From contig CP012388.1 in NCBI GenBank assembly GCA_001708385.1, positions 1,240,001 through 1,304,000 of the forward strand: 64,000 nucleotides of DNA. Direction: 5' to 3'. Origin of the DNA: Flavobacterium psychrophilum (GTDB lineage Bacteria; Bacteroidota; Bacteroidia; Flavobacteriales; Flavobacteriaceae). The notes under the pieces were generated by a model that worked only from the letters and a program-made list of their open reading frames with translations, made no database searches and was not told the DNA's origin. Shown one piece after another: positions 14,854 to 38,709 of the stretch. The first letter of the stretch is position 1; each line of letters opens with the position of its first letter. Position numbers and translations under genes: made by a program.

Positions 14854-15117
14854 ATGCAATCTGTTCAACTGCAAAAAGATAAACTAGACCTGATTGAGTG
14901 GATAACCCAATTAGAAGATCCTGCTATGATCCAAAAGATCAAACAAATTATGATTGAGGAGGATAATTATGGTTTTAGCTTATCTGATGAACAGAAATTA
15001 ATTCTTGAAGAAGGAACAGAAAAATATATATCAGGAGAAGAACGTGCCTATTCATGGGAAGAGATAAAAAACAGCAGTGCGCAATTAAAGAAACTCATTA
15101 ATGAGAAAAAAGCATAA
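14854..15117 (+). CDS. Type II antitoxin
   Basis: This 87-residue protein is the first gene of a two-gene toxin-antitoxin module. The C-terminal half (LSDEQKLILEEGTEKYISGE then YSWEEIKNSSAQLKKLINEK) resembles the small addiction-module antitoxins that precede ParE/RelE toxins, with the W-E-E-(I/V)-K motif as toxin-binding tail. The N-terminal half is helical and could form the dimer; it is not a recognisable HTH or ribbon-helix-helix. It overlaps the toxin gene by 17 bases. It has a promoter with an inverted repeat across the -7 box. The pairing makes the call fairly strong; the family assignment is less so. Confidence 0.75.
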   Translation: MQSVQLQKDKLDLIEWITQLEDPAMIQKIKQIMIEEDNYGFSLSDEQKLILEEGTEKYISGEERAYSWEEIKNSSAQLKKLINEKKA

Positions 15118-15397
15118 GCTTATTTACATTTCAAGATCGCACAAATGCATTTTAACCGCCTTTGAATATTATGAATCTGCCCAGAAAGATCTTGGCGACT
15201 ATTTTCTTTCTTCGTTAGAAGAATGTATAGTTTCAATAGATACATATCCCGAAATTTACAAGCTTATATACAAAACATACAGGCAGGCAAAAATTAAACG
15301 GTTTCCGTATGTTGTAATTTTCAGGCTTAATGAAGATGAAATTATAATTGAAAATGTTTTCAACACGTATCAAAACCCAACCAAAAAAACGAAATAG
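15101..15397 (+). CDS. Type II toxin of the ParE/RelE superfamily
   Basis: This 98-residue basic protein fits the ParE/RelE fold. There are helices at FEYYESAQKDLGDYFLSSLEE, the typical IDTYPEIYKLIYKTYRQAKI stretch, and the strand KRFPYVVIFRLNEDEIIIEN ending in VFNTYQNP. The start overlaps the antitoxin stop by 17 bases, which fits translational coupling. The superfamily includes gyrase poisons (ParE) and ribosome-dependent mRNases (RelE); the sequence does not tell which. Three bases after its stop, the next gene begins at a TTG, so the substrate-binding lipoprotein may be read from the same transcript. Confidence 0.85.
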   Translation: MRKKHKLIYISRSHKCILTAFEYYESAQKDLGDYFLSSLEECIVSIDTYPEIYKLIYKTYRQAKIKRFPYVVIFRLNEDEIIIENVFNTYQNPTKKTK

Positions 15398-17005: not shown

Positions 17006-17614
17006 ATGGATCTTTTTAACGATAAATACCGGATTAATTCCAGCCGATTACCTAATTGGGATTACGCCTCAAATGCTGTTTACTTTATAACTATATGTAC
17101 ATACGCTAAACAACATTTCTTTGGAACGATTGTAGATTCAACCATGAAGTTTTCTGAAGAAGGTAAAATAGCTAAAAGCTATATTTTACAAATACCAAAG
17201 CTTTTTAGTTATACTGAAATTGATGCATTTGTAATAATGCCGAATCACATTCATATTCTCCTTGTTCTTAATAATTTGACCTCACCTTCAGAAAAATTAA
17301 ACCATCAAATCTCCCAAAAGGGAATTATTGACGAGGATATTTTTATTGATGTGCGGCAGACACCTCAGTATAACGTCGCTACTGAAGAAAAAAATGAATT
17401 TATGTCTAAGATATCTCCAAAGAAAGGTTCGGTATCAACAATAATCAGATCTTATAAATCTGCAGTTTCAAAAGAAGTACGCAAAATAAATCCGGATTTC
17501 TCATGGCAGGAAAGATTTCATGATCACATAGTACGAAATCACGTATCCTACCAAAAAATAAAATACTACATCATCAATAATCCAAAAAACTGGATCAACG
17601 ACAAATTTTATTAA
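17006..17614 (+). CDS. REP-associated tyrosine transposase (RAYT, IS200-like Y1 family)
   Basis: This 202-residue protein is a Y1 single-strand DNA transposase of the RAYT type. The HUH motif is at His81 and His83 in FVIMPNHIHILL. The probable nucleophile is Tyr150 in IIRSYKSAVSK. The C-terminal signature WQERFHDHIVRN with YIINNPKNW is typical. RAYTs are usually domesticated, one per genome, and act on the REP palindromes beside them. Here REP-like palindromes follow immediately downstream (17623-18077). The start lies four bases after the previous stop. A roughly 50-residue insertion (about 90-140) between the HUH motif and the Tyr helix is longer than in compact members. The family call is strong. 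Confidence 0.9.
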   Translation: MDLFNDKYRINSSRLPNWDYASNAVYFITICTYAKQHFFGTIVDSTMKFSEEGKIAKSYILQIPKLFSYTEIDAFVIMPNHIHILLVLNNLTSPSEKLNHQISQKGIIDEDIFIDVRQTPQYNVATEEKNEFMSKISPKKGSVSTIIRSYKSAVSKEVRKINPDFSWQERFHDHIVRNHVSYQKIKYYIINNPKNWINDKFY

Positions 17615-17622
17615 TTCTGCCT

Positions 17623-18077
17623 GTAGAGACGTTGCACTGAAACGTCTATTAACCGCTACCATATTATTATCAAATCATCGTTGTACTACACTAATAATGG
17701 ATGCAATATCATCTAAGACGTTGCATTGCAATATCTAATATACTGTTGCCATATTATCAAATCGTAGTTGCACAAAACTAGTAACGGCTGCAATATCATC
17801 TAAGACGTTGCATTGAAATATCTAATATACTGTTGCCATATTATTATCAAATCGTCGTTGTACAACACTAATAATGGATGCCATATCATCTAAGACGTTG
17901 CACTGCAATATCTAATATACTGTTGCCATATTATTATCAAATCGTAGTTGCACAAAACTGATAACGGCTGCAATATTATCACCTGAGACGTTGTACTGCA
18001 ACGTCTTATAACCGCTACCATATTATCATAACAGCTGCCATATTATCACCTAAGACGTTGCAGTGCAACGTCTCTAC
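17623..18077. repeat. Array of degenerate REP palindromes adjacent to the RAYT gene
   Basis: The core AGACGTTGCA-N-TGCAACGTCT, or a decayed form, occurs six times, with GACG starting at 17628, 17717, 17804, 17894, 17987 and 18054. Spacing is about 87-93 bases, then 67. The last copy is a perfect palindrome (18053-18073). The three inner copies carry AATATCT in the right arm where the outer ones have AACGTCT. Between cores two filler types alternate: one has TTGTAC with AATAATGGATGC, the other TTGCAC with GTAACGGCTGC. The array ends are inverted: GTAGAGACGTTGCA at 17623 and TGCAACGTCTCTAC ending at 18077. The AT-rich 18078-18254 that follows has no other recognisable structure. Confidence 0.85.
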
Positions 18078-18254
18078 TGGAAATCCTATAACCAATAATT
18101 AAATTTGAACACTATTACTCAATATGATTCTTACATACATTTACTACATTATTTACAAAATTTATTTTATTAATGTTAAACCTCAATTAAAAAATCACAA
18201 AACCAATATATCGGCAGATATTTTAGCTACCTTAGAAATCAAAATTACTGAAAT

Positions 18255-18674
18255 ATGAAACTACTACTTTTAACTGCCGGATTATTTATCGCATCATTAT
18301 CGTTACAGGCACAGGAAACCGTATACAGGTCGGAGATACCATCGGGAGCACGATCATTGCTTTCTAAATTCAGGAGTCCGTTTCACCACGCTGTAAAGCA
18401 GGATACCGAAGAAGCAACGATATATAATATTACGCTTAACGATAAAACAGAGATAAAATTTGCAGATAACGGCAGCCTTACAGTAGTAGATGGCAAAGGA
18501 AAACCAATTCCTTATAAATTTCTGGACAAGACTATTGTTGAATACATGAAAGAAAATTACGCCAACGATAGTATCACAAGGGTAGAAATGTGCGACTCGG
18601 AATGCAAGCTTGCGCTTAGCAATGGCAAAGCCCTTAAATTTGACAGCAGTGGCAAATTTATAGCCAATAACTAG
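18255..18674 (+). CDS. Secreted PepSY-like protein (1 of 3)
   Basis: This 139-residue periplasmic protein has a signal peptide (MKLLLLTAGLFIASLSLQAQ) and a PepSY-like domain of two tandem repeats. The strand pattern of charged turns in YNITLNDKTEIKFADNGSLT, IPYKFLDKTIVEYMKENY and LALSNGKALKFDSSGKF matches the Bacteroidota PepSY_like family, which is often encoded beside OmpR-type two-component genes. It carries two cysteines close together (MCDSECK), unlike its paralogues. It lies 85 bases before the response regulator and has its own upstream region. The function is unknown; a sensor or buffer for the kinase is inference. Confidence 0.8.
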   Translation: MKLLLLTAGLFIASLSLQAQETVYRSEIPSGARSLLSKFRSPFHHAVKQDTEEATIYNITLNDKTEIKFADNGSLTVVDGKGKPIPYKFLDKTIVEYMKENYANDSITRVEMCDSECKLALSNGKALKFDSSGKFIANN

Positions 18675-18679
18675 ATCTT

Positions 18680-18735
18680 TTTCCCAAATCTTTCCAGAAT
18701 TGAACAATACCTTGCAGGCATAATCTGTATATTTG
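18680..18735 (+). promoter_or_regulatory. Candidate response-regulator operator and promoter upstream of the two-component genes
   Basis: TTTCCCA (18680-18686) and TTTCCAG (18691-18697) form a direct repeat with an 11-base period, the pattern bound by OmpR/PhoB-type regulators. The surrounding block (TTTTTCCCAA, then TTTCCAGA) is repeated at 20720-20740. TATATTTG at 18728-18735 is a -7 match, and TACCTTGC at 18708 is a weaker one at the spacing seen in the second site. Confidence 0.55.
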
Positions 18736-18759
18736 GTATACAAAGCAATGCGCTGCAGT

Positions 18760-19431
18760 ATGAAAATTCTAATAATTGAAGACGAACAGGGACTTAGAGA
18801 GGTAATTCGCGAATCGCTGGAAAAAGAAAAATACATTGTGGAAACCGCTCACGATTTTATATCGGGGCTTGACAAAATAGGCTCGTACGATTACGACTGC
18901 GTGCTTATTGATATAATGCTTCCGCATGGCAGTGGGCTCGACCTTGTTAGTGAGCTTAAAAAGCTCCGAAAGAAAGAGGCCGTTATTATTATTTCTGCCA
19001 AAGATGCAGTAGATGATAAAGTAGCCGGGCTGGATCTCGGCGCCGATGATTATCTTGCCAAACCTTTTCACCTCGCCGAACTGCACGCACGAATAAAATC
19101 TGCCATACGCAGAAAAAGCCATGATGGCGATACTGCCATTACATGGAACAACCTCAAATTATCGCCCGAAGAAAGAACTGTTTTAGTAGATGGCACTCCT
19201 CTTGTGCTTAACCGCAAGGAATTCGACCTGCTTTACTATTTTATTATCAATCCTAACCGGCTGATAAATAAAACTGCATTGGCAGAATCGGTTTGGGGCG
19301 ACTATATGGATCAGGCAGACAATCTGGACTTTGTATATTCGCAGATAAAAAATCTCCGCAAAAAATTAAAAGACGCCAATGCCGAAGCCGATGTACAGGC
19401 TGTGTACGGCATGGGCTATAAAATGAGCTAA
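18760..19431 (+). CDS. OmpR/PhoB-family response regulator
   Basis: This 223-residue protein has an N-terminal receiver domain with acidic pair IEDEQ, phosphoacceptor Asp51 in LIDIMLP and the conserved Lys in DYLAKPF. A C-terminal winged-helix DNA-binding domain follows (LTFDL-type ELNRKEFDLLYYF then the recognition segment). The start at 18760 was chosen over upstream in-frame codons because MKILIIEDEQ is the usual opening and the operator/promoter lies just before it. Its stop codon overlaps the kinase start by one base. It probably regulates both its own operon and the PepSY-like pair downstream through the shared 11-base direct repeats. Confidence 0.93.
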   Translation: MKILIIEDEQGLREVIRESLEKEKYIVETAHDFISGLDKIGSYDYDCVLIDIMLPHGSGLDLVSELKKLRKKEAVIIISAKDAVDDKVAGLDLGADDYLAKPFHLAELHARIKSAIRRKSHDGDTAITWNNLKLSPEERTVLVDGTPLVLNRKEFDLLYYFIINPNRLINKTALAESVWGDYMDQADNLDFVYSQIKNLRKKLKDANAEADVQAVYGMGYKMS

Positions 19432-20708
19432 TGAAACTTCGCAACTACACACTACGCTATTTAATTATTGCCCTTCTGGGTGTTATAGCCGTGTGGGCTG
19501 CCCTTTTTTATGCCGTCATCCTCGACGAAGTATACGACAACATTGACGACGGACTTAAGAATTCTAAAATTCTTATTATCCGTGAATCGTATGCTAATGA
19601 AAAGGTTTTGGAAACACGCGAATTTGGTATCAACCAGTTTAAGATTACTGCGCTTCCTAAAGGTAAGCTATATGACTTTTCGGATAAGTTCATCAGCACG
19701 TTTGAATTCATGGAATATGATGATGATAACGAGCCTGTACGCCTTTTAGAAACCGTTTTTAACGACTCAAAAGGCAATCCGTACAAGCTTACTATCCGTG
19801 CTTCTATGGTAGAGGAAGACGAACTGATGGAAGACCTTCTTACCGCGCTAGTTGCCTTATATATAATGCTTGTAATCAGTATCGCATTAATCAACCAGGT
19901 TATTCTGCGTAAAGCATGGAAGTCATTCTACGAAATGCTTAACGGACTTAAAAACTTTAGATTAGGCACAGGAAATACCTTTACAGCACCACATTCGCCA
20001 ATTACAGAGTTTAAGACATTAGGGCTGGAACTGGAAGACCTTTTAAAGCGTAACGAAGAGATCTATGCCAGCCAGAAGCACTTTATAGAAAATGCATCGC
20101 ATGAGTTACAAACTCCTCTTGCAATAAGCCTTAATAAACTTGAACTTTTTGCAGACAATAACAACCTGCCCGAAGACCAGATGATGGAAATCGGTAAAAT
20201 AAGCGATACTCTAAACCGGTTGGTACGATTAAACAAATCGCTGCTAATGCTTTCTAAAATTGAGAACAGGCAATATGGCGATGAAGAAATCGTGAACTTT
20301 AACGAGCTCATCACTCAGCTAACTGATGATTACCAAGATCTTGCGGAATACAAAAATATTACCCTTAATATAGATTTCCAGGCGCAGCTAAGTTTTAGCA
20401 TGAACAAAGGGCTGGCACTTACGTTAGTGAGCAACCTGCTTAAAAACGCTATAGTACACAACCATACCGGCGGCATGGTAAACTTTATAATTGCAGAAAA
20501 CACCATTACCATAAGCAACTCAGGCAACAGCAAACCGCTCAACGCCGATGCGATTTTTAATCGCTTTTACAGGGACACCAATAACGAGCAATCTACCGGG
20601 CTTGGATTATCCATTGTAAATTCCATCATTGCAAACTACAAGATTACAGCCGCTTACAGCTTTAACGGATTACACACCTTTACTATAACATTCCCTGAAA
20701 AAAGATAG
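19431..20708 (+). CDS. Two-component sensor histidine kinase
   Basis: This 425-residue membrane kinase has two transmembrane segments (about residues 10-30 and 135-160) bounding a periplasmic sensor loop of about 100 residues. A HisKA domain follows with His224 in NASHELQTPL. The HATPase domain carries an N box with SNLLKNAIVHN and a G2-type TGLGLSIV; the G1 region is short, SNSGNSKP. The first residue overlaps the regulator stop by one base. PepSY-like proteins on both sides suggest the loop may sense a periplasmic ligand or partner; this is inference. It is complete. Confidence 0.92.
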   Translation: MKLRNYTLRYLIIALLGVIAVWAALFYAVILDEVYDNIDDGLKNSKILIIRESYANEKVLETREFGINQFKITALPKGKLYDFSDKFISTFEFMEYDDDNEPVRLLETVFNDSKGNPYKLTIRASMVEEDELMEDLLTALVALYIMLVISIALINQVILRKAWKSFYEMLNGLKNFRLGTGNTFTAPHSPITEFKTLGLELEDLLKRNEEIYASQKHFIENASHELQTPLAISLNKLELFADNNNLPEDQMMEIGKISDTLNRLVRLNKSLLMLSKIENRQYGDEEIVNFNELITQLTDDYQDLAEYKNITLNIDFQAQLSFSMNKGLALTLVSNLLKNAIVHNHTGGMVNFIIAENTITISNSGNSKPLNADAIFNRFYRDTNNEQSTGLGLSIVNSIIANYKITAAYSFNGLHTFTITFPEKR

Positions 20709-20721
20709 AAAAGTTTCTGTT

Positions 20722-20757
20722 TTTCCCAATTGTTTCCAGATTCAGGGTATAAGTTTG
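20722..20757 (+). promoter_or_regulatory. Second copy of the candidate operator, before the PepSY-like pair
   Basis: TTTCCCA (20722-20728) and TTTCCAG (20733-20739) form an 11-base direct repeat identical to that at 18680. A good -7 box, TAAGTTTG (20750-20757), lies 17 bases from the start of the second half-site. The gene it serves begins at 20783. The flanking bases also match the first site for about 20 positions with three differences. Confidence 0.6.
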
Positions 20758-20782
20758 TATAAGAAATTTAAATATACCTATC

Positions 20783-21226
20783 ATGAAAACGAAATTAAAC
20801 CTATTATCGGCACTTGCTTTTACCCTATTGTTTAGCCTTACGGTATCTGCACAAAAAAAGAACATTGCACTAAAAGAACTTCCTGCAAACGCACAAACGT
20901 TTCTTGCAAAACACTTCCCTAATCAGGCTGCATCTTATATCATAGAAGACAAAGGCTATATCAATACTGATTACAAAGTAATGCTTACCGGCGGAACAGA
21001 AATTGAATTTGACGGTAAAGGAAACCTTGACGAAGCCGATGGCAACAAAAAAGCAATTCCAACAAGCATACTTCCTAAACCTATCGCAACCTACATAGCT
21101 GCCAATTATAAAGGACTGGAAGTAGAGAAATTCGAAAAAGAAAAATCAGGTTATAAAGTAGAGTTCCTAAACGATCTTGAGCTGAAGTTTGATAACGCAG
21201 GTAAGTTTTTAAGAATTGACGACTAA
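20783..21226 (+). CDS. Secreted PepSY-like protein (2 of 3)
   Basis: This 147-residue protein has a signal peptide ending near VSAQ and two PepSY-like repeats: LPANAQTFLAKHFPNQAA with YIIEDKGYINTDYKVML, GGTEIEFDGKGNLDEADGNK, then a second half with IPTSILPKPIATYIAANYK and KVEFLNDLELKFDNAGKFL. The tandem structure and the (D/N)G(K/N)G turn match its two paralogues. It follows the kinase by 74 bases, downstream of the second operator copy, and is 16 bases before the third paralogue, so these two are probably one transcript. The protein is expected to be periplasmic. No enzymatic residues are evident. Confidence 0.85.
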   Translation: MKTKLNLLSALAFTLLFSLTVSAQKKNIALKELPANAQTFLAKHFPNQAASYIIEDKGYINTDYKVMLTGGTEIEFDGKGNLDEADGNKKAIPTSILPKPIATYIAANYKGLEVEKFEKEKSGYKVEFLNDLELKFDNAGKFLRIDD

Positions 21227-21242
21227 CATAAAATAACTGACT

Positions 21243-21707
21243 ATGAAAAGAGTAATTGCATTGGCTTTTACAGCCGTACTAAGCTTTACTGCACTATCAT
21301 GCAGTGACGACGACAACGATAAAACTAACGATACAATAATTGAATCGGCACAGCTTCCCCAGGCAGCAAGGGATTTTATCGCAACACACTTTCCTGATGT
21401 AACGTATACCCGTATTGAAAAAGAATCAAGACCTGATGACGATGGTTCTATTTATGATGTACATCTTTCTAATGGCTTTGAGATCGATTTTGATGTTAAC
21501 GGTAACTGGACTGATATAGATGGTAATAATCAGGCAATACCAACTGCAATAATACCTGTGCCTATTACAAATTATGTAACAGCCAATTACGCCAGTACAA
21601 CTGTAAACACTATCGAAATTGAGAGCTATGGTTATGATGTAGAATTATCAAACGGAATTGACCTGGTTTTTGACGTTAATGGTGGGTTTGTCAGAATAGA
21701 CAATTAA
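21243..21707 (+). CDS. PepSY-like lipoprotein (3 of 3)
   Basis: This 154-residue lipoprotein has a lipobox ending in ALSC with Cys20, followed by an acidic linker (SDDDNDKTNDT) and two PepSY-like repeats, LPQAARDFIATHFPDVTYTR with NGFEIDFDVNGNWTDIDGNN and the second half ending NGIDLVFDVNGGFVRID. Unlike paralogues 1 and 2 it is lipid anchored. Its acidity (many Asp) is unusual and could bind cations. It ends at a bidirectional terminator and is probably co-transcribed with the preceding gene. Confidence 0.85.
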   Translation: MKRVIALAFTAVLSFTALSCSDDDNDKTNDTIIESAQLPQAARDFIATHFPDVTYTRIEKESRPDDDGSIYDVHLSNGFEIDFDVNGNWTDIDGNNQAIPTAIIPVPITNYVTANYASTTVNTIEIESYGYDVELSNGIDLVFDVNGGFVRIDN

Positions 21708-38680: not shown

Positions 38681-38709
38681 GGACACGAGCGGGACGCTCG
38701 CGCCAGCAG
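38681..38709. repeat. Interspersed palindromic fragment
   Basis: GGACACGAGCGGGACGCTCG then CGCCAGC contains the inverted repeat CGAGCG/CGCTCG. It is GC rich in AT-rich surroundings, like short elements dispersed in Bacteroidota genomes. Confidence 0.55.

Follow-up and report, generated by a model that had tools for sequence, protein, structure and literature searches.

The window analysed here, a 64,000-nt stretch of the Flavobacterium psychrophilum chromosome, contains a single-copy RAYT gene with a cluster of palindromes directly downstream of it (Table 1). The gene product scores 25.4 bits against the PF01797 profile (cut-off 23) and 50.7 bits against the NCBIfam model NF047646 (REP_Tyr_transpos), which is below the curated cut-off of 80; the complete RAYT reported in a preliminary description of this DNA is thus borne out by an open frame of 202 aa and a PF01797 score above the cut-off. 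Among PDB sequences, only that of the TnpA-REP structure 4er8 matches at E ≤ 0.01 (E 2.3e-6), and 4er8 is also the top fold match of an AlphaFold model (E 3.0e-6, TM 0.47/0.57; mean pLDDT 71.6, alignment of 11 rows). The IS200/IS605 transposases of ISDra2 and IS608 give fold matches close to that of 4er8 (E from 1.1e-5), so the fold alone cannot separate a RAYT from IS200. The multiple near-identical transposase copies expected of an IS200/IS605 insertion sequence are not seen, the gene having only one match in its own genome.

The preliminary description had correctly named His81 and His83 as the HUH histidines, but its choice of Tyr150 as the catalytic residue has to be replaced: residue 150 lies in a conserved helix and yet is Phe in the relative L055, whereas Tyr188, the catalytic tyrosine by motif (YIINNP), is invariant across the 11-row alignment. 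Tyr188 lies 21 residues past Trp167, which presumably equals the spacing between Trp94 and the residue that we take to be Tyr115 in the E. coli protein. Trp94 is the W-motif residue of E. coli TnpA-REP in the part of Quentin et al. (2018, PMC6006769) covered here. The same part of that paper defines TnpA-REP subclass 2.4 by the motifs NH[IFV]H, WQ and YIxNNP, which the window protein carries as NHIH, Trp167-Gln168 and YIINNP from residue 188. The variable HUH-to-W insert of this subclass is reflected in alignment gaps and in the low-confidence residues 93-139, and GT[AG]G-footed long REPs lie within 1000 nt of the gene (copies 1 and 6, copies 2-5 being footless); by its motifs, the window RAYT is therefore assigned to subclass 2.4 (RAYT group 4). 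Residues 93-139 have a pLDDT below 50 in the model, which suggests a disordered loop, as far as an alignment of only 11 rows can indicate. A PF01797 scan of the genome missed the window's own RAYT, so that such family scans are weak negatives, and since PF01797 fails as a subclass detector, the protein and then an alignment (A2) were used as queries instead.

Table 1 Features of the RAYT locus (positions in the window; hairpin energies for DNA)
Feature	Position	Strand	Description
RAYT / TnpA-REP gene, subclass 2.4 by motifs	17006..17614	+	202 aa, intact ORF
HUH motif NHIH, residues 80-83 (His81, His83)	17243..17254	+	by alignment
Probable fossil in-gene REP	17354..17382	+	17 of 28 defined positions match GTAGAGACGTTGCANTGCAACGTCTCTAC
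WQ motif (Trp167, Gln168)	17504..17509	+	by alignment
Tyr188 (YIINNP)	17567..17569	+	catalytic role by motif only
Whole REP cluster	17620..18080		bounded by 28-nt inverted repeats (93% complementary); REPIN-like, both feet pointing outward
REP copy 1	17623..17647	+	GTAG foot and palindrome, 1 mismatch; -5.5 kcal/mol
90-nt tandem array (TRF)	17627..17980		4.0 copies, 84% matches; contains copies 1-4
REP copy 2	17716..17736	+	decayed, 2 mismatches, no foot; -1.9 kcal/mol
REP copy 3	17803..17823	+	decayed, 3 mismatches, no foot, no predicted hairpin; 0 kcal/mol
REP copy 4	17893..17913	+	decayed, 2 mismatches, no foot; -1.9 kcal/mol
REP copy 5	17986..18006	+	strong hairpin, 1 mismatch, no foot; -8.1 kcal/mol
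REP copy 6	18053..18077	-	exact palindrome, CTAC (GTAG foot on minus strand); -9.4 kcal/mol

The REP of the window consists of GTAG followed by the palindrome AGACGTTGCA-N-TGCAACGTCT. Six copies of AGACGTTGCANTGCAACGTCT with 0-3 mismatches start at 17627, 17716, 17803, 17893, 17986 and 18053, no other copy within this limit was found in the 64 kb, and 100 shuffles gave 0. The earlier count and positions of the palindromes are therefore right, but the idea of six equal REPs had to be rejected, as copies 2-4 are decayed, the copies fold unequally, copies 1-4 belong to a tandem array and only two copies are footed. These feet are limited to the outermost copies, with GTAG to the left of copy 1 (17623), starting 9 nt beyond the RAYT stop codon, and CTAC to the right of copy 6 (to 18077). 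Because copies 2-4 have the decayed right arm AATATCT in common, the unit had most likely decayed before duplication enlarged the array. The suggestion that the element is in decay thus applies to the inner copies and to the in-gene copy treated below, but not to the protein motifs and the outermost REPs, which have been kept. The 329-nt stretch 17652-17980 has no second copy anywhere in the genome, which led us to reject the array as a wider dispersed unit; a longer inner hairpin of the 90-nt unit was also discarded, as two folded units did no better than shuffles. Rfam models searched against 17500-18300 gave three matches only, all far below the gathering scores.

The cluster could be a regulatory tail of the RAYT transcript, with 3'-terminal hairpins that end transcription or protect the mRNA and on which the enzyme does not act. 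The position of copy 1 just past the stop codon, the good folding of copies 1, 5 and 6 and the seemingly intergenic location of the 10 dispersed copies examined would all suit such a role. However, a consensus scan found no terminator-like site within the array, and a terminator needs neither GTAG feet nor the association of REP and RAYT types described below, and we consider this explanation unlikely. A regulatory role and a role as enzyme substrate can coexist.

Outside the cluster, the REP is dispersed through the 4.14-Mb genome, which has 19 sites at ≤3 mismatches, 6 of them in the array and 13 elsewhere, against 0 for a reversed-pattern control; four copies are exact, one of which is in the array. 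Ten of the 13 outside sites were examined in fetched loci (992251, 1345268 and 2484014 being left out), and all ten read as intergenic in our own reading of an ORF list with frames of at least 100 aa. Sites 1880503 and 2141446 lie inside stop-to-stop frames, which we judged to be spurious or upstream of the start. The genome thus contains a cognate REP dispersed between genes, as expected of a REPtron. A looser pattern likewise gave 19 genome sites in a partly different set. Site 2264649 is of the AGACGTAGCANTGCTACGTCT type, with one base pair changed on both arms, and the same paired change with one extra mismatch each is seen at 992251, 1345268 and 2484014, indicating that the palindrome can persist while its letters change. 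The same genome also encodes a second RAYT (C1:1336430-1365572; L018, L250, L251), which reaches 92.6 bits against NF047646 and is flanked on both sides by the palindrome GGCRCGAGCGTNACGCTCGYGCC without a GTAG foot. That palindrome has 10 genome sites (≤3 mismatches, control 0), partly as inverted pairs and including one in the window at 38682-38704; 8 of the 10 lie within 29 kb around the second RAYT, so that these REPs cluster around their RAYT.

Among 249 genomes, a sample drawn from the larger genus, the best search score was obtained with G209, whose RAYT (L019) is 53% identical to that of the window and occupies the same locus, as shown by the neighbouring genes for an SBP (88%) and a response regulator (85%). 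Four palindromes, two exact AGACGTTGCACTGCAACGTCT and two GAGCCGTTGCA variants, directly follow this RAYT, and both lines of evidence on which the preliminary description had staked its reading, dispersed copies in the genome and RAYT-linked palindromes in a relative, are therefore at hand. The gene order is the same in G033 (methylthiotransferase-like 96%, SBP 85%, PepSY-like 54%, response regulator 84%, kinase 83%), and its corresponding locus has no RAYT match and no palindrome, which reflects either a gain in the line of the window and G209 or a loss in G033. The names SBP and PepSY-like are Pfam results, and methylthiotransferase, response regulator and kinase are what we take the other proteins to be from their sequences. 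Compared with the SBP and regulator genes, the RAYT has diverged far more rapidly. The point of insertion could not be placed exactly because the intergenic DNA is too diverged. Two further features of this neighbourhood were observed. A two-gene pair at 14854-15397, the second gene ParE-like (PF05016), lies between the methylthiotransferase-like and SBP genes, and tblastn against the 9-kb stretch of G033 gave no match to either gene. At 18255-21707, the probable response regulator and kinase are surrounded by three PepSY-like proteins related to one another, the first recognized by Pfam and the others by similarity to it; the one adjoining the RAYT is 41-54% identical in two relatives, compared with about 85% for the regulator.

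In the genus sample, the exact GTTGCA REP occurs in 26 of 249 genomes and the GCACTGCAGTGC REP in 45, and the RAYT type of a genome was taken from the fetched RAYT locus bearing that REP (≤2 mismatches). With kinship uncontrolled, the exact GTTGCA REP is present in 7 of 8 genomes with a GTTGCA-type RAYT and in 19 of 241 others (p 4.5e-7), copies at the RAYT locus included; by our own count it lies away from the RAYT locus in 5 of the 8 (p 2.5e-4, kinship likewise uncontrolled), the other three having no exact REP away from that locus. For the second type, the figures are 22 of 26 and 23 of 223, RAYT-locus copies included and again irrespective of kinship. Cross-occurrence is rare, with the GTTGCA REP in 1 of 26 second-type genomes and the second REP in 0 of 8 GTTGCA-type genomes. 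Nine of the 19 genomes that have the GTTGCA REP without a GTTGCA-type RAYT gave no RAYT relative at E ≤ 0.001 (two of the nine are only 76% complete); one of them, G150, has 17 exact GTTGCA REPs and no relative of the window RAYT at this threshold, and is a possible orphan REP population. In G025 (C6:71489-71902), a broken RAYT relic lies beside the only exact GTTGCA REP of the genome, which suggests that the enzyme was lost and REPs were left behind. No GTTGCA REP was found at ≤3 mismatches in 20 PF01797 loci of G150, G118, G191, G056, G139, G240, G115 and G033.

The window gene probably also carries an in-frame fossil REP of its own, which the preliminary description did not mention. The segment 17354..17382 encodes RQTPQYNVAT where relatives encode VETLQCNVST, and it aligns with the in-gene REPs of these relatives at the same site and in the same frame. 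It is the best-scoring site in the gene, and codon shuffles reach its score of 17 in 16 of 1000 cases. Of 63,471 plus-strand positions in the window, two more outside the array score equally high; the score by itself is therefore modest, and the fossil case, which is well supported if not proved, rests on place and frame. The in-gene copy of G209 is better preserved but also worn, and the window ORF stays open though its own copy has decayed.

These results bear on an explanation in which the palindromes beside the gene belong to a tandem satellite that has nothing to do with the RAYT, whose substrate would be something else. The 90-nt array detected by TRF and the single-copy 329-nt stretch are what such a satellite would look like, but the REP of the unit is dispersed in the genome, recurs beside the G209 RAYT at the same locus, has a probable fossil within the gene and goes together with the RAYT type across the genus sample. 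We therefore regard the satellite as very improbable.

In-gene REPs were surveyed in related RAYTs. At least one locus, though not always every match, was fetched from 74 of the 82 same-genus genomes with a RAYT match (own genome included); in one list of 80 loci, 44 were examined (L048-L090, L093) and 36 left out. The 134 RAYT loci gave 126 with an open HUH-to-Tyr frame and 106 after removal of 20 near-duplicates. The motif requires an open frame from HUH to Tyr only, so that a few rows (L148, L169) have an N-terminal stop, and the eight loci that it did not match include broken ones as well as L040 and L069, whose frames look open. Palindromes below 35% G+C were excluded from the in-gene counts. 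In the 106 loci, palindromes lie in the gene in 70, outside it within 600 nt in 66, and in either place in 88; since 20 codon shuffles put an in-gene palindrome in 2 to 12 of the 106 genes, a few of the 70 are due to chance. The 111 in-gene palindromes are distributed unevenly: 98 of them lie between HUH and W, another 13 precede HUH, and W is followed by none. Anchored by AGAC, 73 use the VET frame (nine of them from one gene, L137), 17 the RDA frame (of which the L168 copy looks like a chance match) and none the third frame, in which the GTAG foot would read TAG; 21 are unanchored. The L137 gene (G028) is itself unusual, as its 361-aa RAYT ORF contains nine in-frame REPs about 16 or 32 residues apart between HUH and W.

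Where a locus has palindromes both inside and flanking the gene, the two match in 44 of 48 cases (at least 8 of 9 inner-arm letters), whereas 200 permuted pairings averaged 7.3 matches and never exceeded 13, shared descent being left uncontrolled in this comparison. REP type follows RAYT clades on a quick tree built from conserved parts and limited to relatives of the window RAYT (of its 103 inner branches, 24 are starred and 38 open, and several branches are long). On this tree, in-gene palindromes must have appeared or disappeared at least 24 times. One clade of 25 rows has GTTGC, AAGGC and GCGAT (and one GCAAT) in separate parts, two of the forks being weak; its 20 anchored in-gene copies all use the VET frame, one copy is unanchored and four rows have none. 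The GTTGCA, AAGGCA and CGCGAT types thus occur within one clade in the same frame and at about the same place.

There is about an even chance, in our judgement, that in-gene REPs were inserted passively and neutrally into a loop that tolerates them and tell nothing about function, which is near the view of Quentin et al. (2018) in the part covered. The low pLDDT of residues 93-139 (11-row alignment), the use of two reading frames (73 VET and 17 RDA, with 21 unanchored), by which no single peptide is kept, and the decay of the window copy in an open ORF all agree with it. Against it stand the 44 matches, compared with a permuted mean of 7.3, and the way in which REP type follows RAYT clades, both of which shared descent, left uncontrolled, explains in part. 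We tentatively speculate, while considering it less likely than not, that in this RAYT group the REP cycle has a permanent site within the RAYT reading frame itself, where the in-gene REP is rewritten alongside the flanking REPs as specificity changes, either because the enzyme repeatedly inserts or converts it or because the hairpin, in the gene or the mRNA, limits its own expression; the window would then be an abandoned site with a peptide fossil. The frame rule and the inside/flank match are not described in the parts of PMC6006769, PMC3733652, PMC8266576 and PMC12306157 covered here, supplements being outside this scope.

Taken together, we are confident that the window locus is a REPtron composed of a subclass 2.4 RAYT, an HUH/Y1 ssDNA endonuclease, and its cognate REP palindrome. 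In the mechanism that we propose, when the region becomes single-stranded, for example as lagging-strand template, the REP hairpin would be bound and recognized through its stem and the 5' GTAG, His81 and His83 would position the metal, and Tyr188 would cut near the hairpin and join the strand elsewhere. Such cutting and joining, which may still be going on, would slowly seed REPs into gaps between genes. The cluster may have originated as two opposite REPs with outward feet; its middle would later have decayed and been enlarged by tandem copies of the 90-nt unit, with no transposition involved. An in-frame copy of this REP may once have occupied the variable HUH-to-WQ loop of the gene, where it would now survive as a fossil at the protein level. 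Several observations weigh against the REPtron: the copy number is low, with one of only four exact REPs in the array; a foot is present on only 2 of 6 array copies; REPs occur without the enzyme in 9 of 19 genomes, including G150; 3 of 8 GTTGCA-type genomes lack an exact REP beyond the RAYT locus; the protein falls below the NCBIfam RAYT cut-off; and IS200/IS605 transposases fit the fold nearly as well.

The locus bears on how RAYTs and REPs persist without clear transposition. In this RAYT group, the enzyme seems to change type along with its substrates, both the flanking one and the one in frame, which makes the group a natural test of self-regulation against passive insertion. The window represents a lineage in which the in-gene copy has probably been lost from a reading frame that is still open, and syntenic loci that have and lack the element are available for comparison.

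The comparison with known systems relies on the parts of the cited papers covered here. Bacteroidetes and Cyanobacteria are rich in subclass 2.4, whose REPs lie both beside and inside the gene (Quentin et al. 2018, PMC6006769), so the earlier remark that such arrays are less well documented in Bacteroidota needs correction; a 2025 REP survey also includes two Flavobacterium genomes (PMC12306157). In-frame REPs between HUH and Y were already reported in 2018 as a unique feature of this subclass (PMC6006769), to which the window adds a corrected anatomy and a probable fossil in-gene REP. The window agrees with the subclass in its three motifs, its variable HUH-to-W insert and its flanking GTAG REPs. 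In the published description (PMC6006769) these REPs are long or double-foot and also lie inside the gene, whereas the window has no more than a probable fossil there, and its downstream array has a 90-nt tandem repeat and decayed REPs. GTAG REPs, REPtrons and intragenic REPs were described by Di Nocera et al. (2013, PMC3733652); as in the window, the intragenic GTAG/CGTC REPs are inserted in reading frames that remain unbroken, but they lie in other host genes, whereas the host here is the RAYT gene itself. Corneloup et al. (2021, PMC8266576) report that RAYTs of groups 2 and 3 recognize REPs in vitro. The E. coli TnpA-REP/REPtron (subclass 2.2; 4er8) shares with the window an HUH/Y1 fold, a GTAG foot and inverted REPs beside the gene, and differs in the bulged stem of its REPs, the stem of the window palindrome having no bulge, and in the C-terminal tail of the RAYT (PMC8266576). 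Like REPINs and BIMEs, the window cluster has two opposite REPs with outward feet and further REPs between them; unlike them, its searched 329-nt middle is single-copy, and the dispersed copies are single REPs or short pairs.
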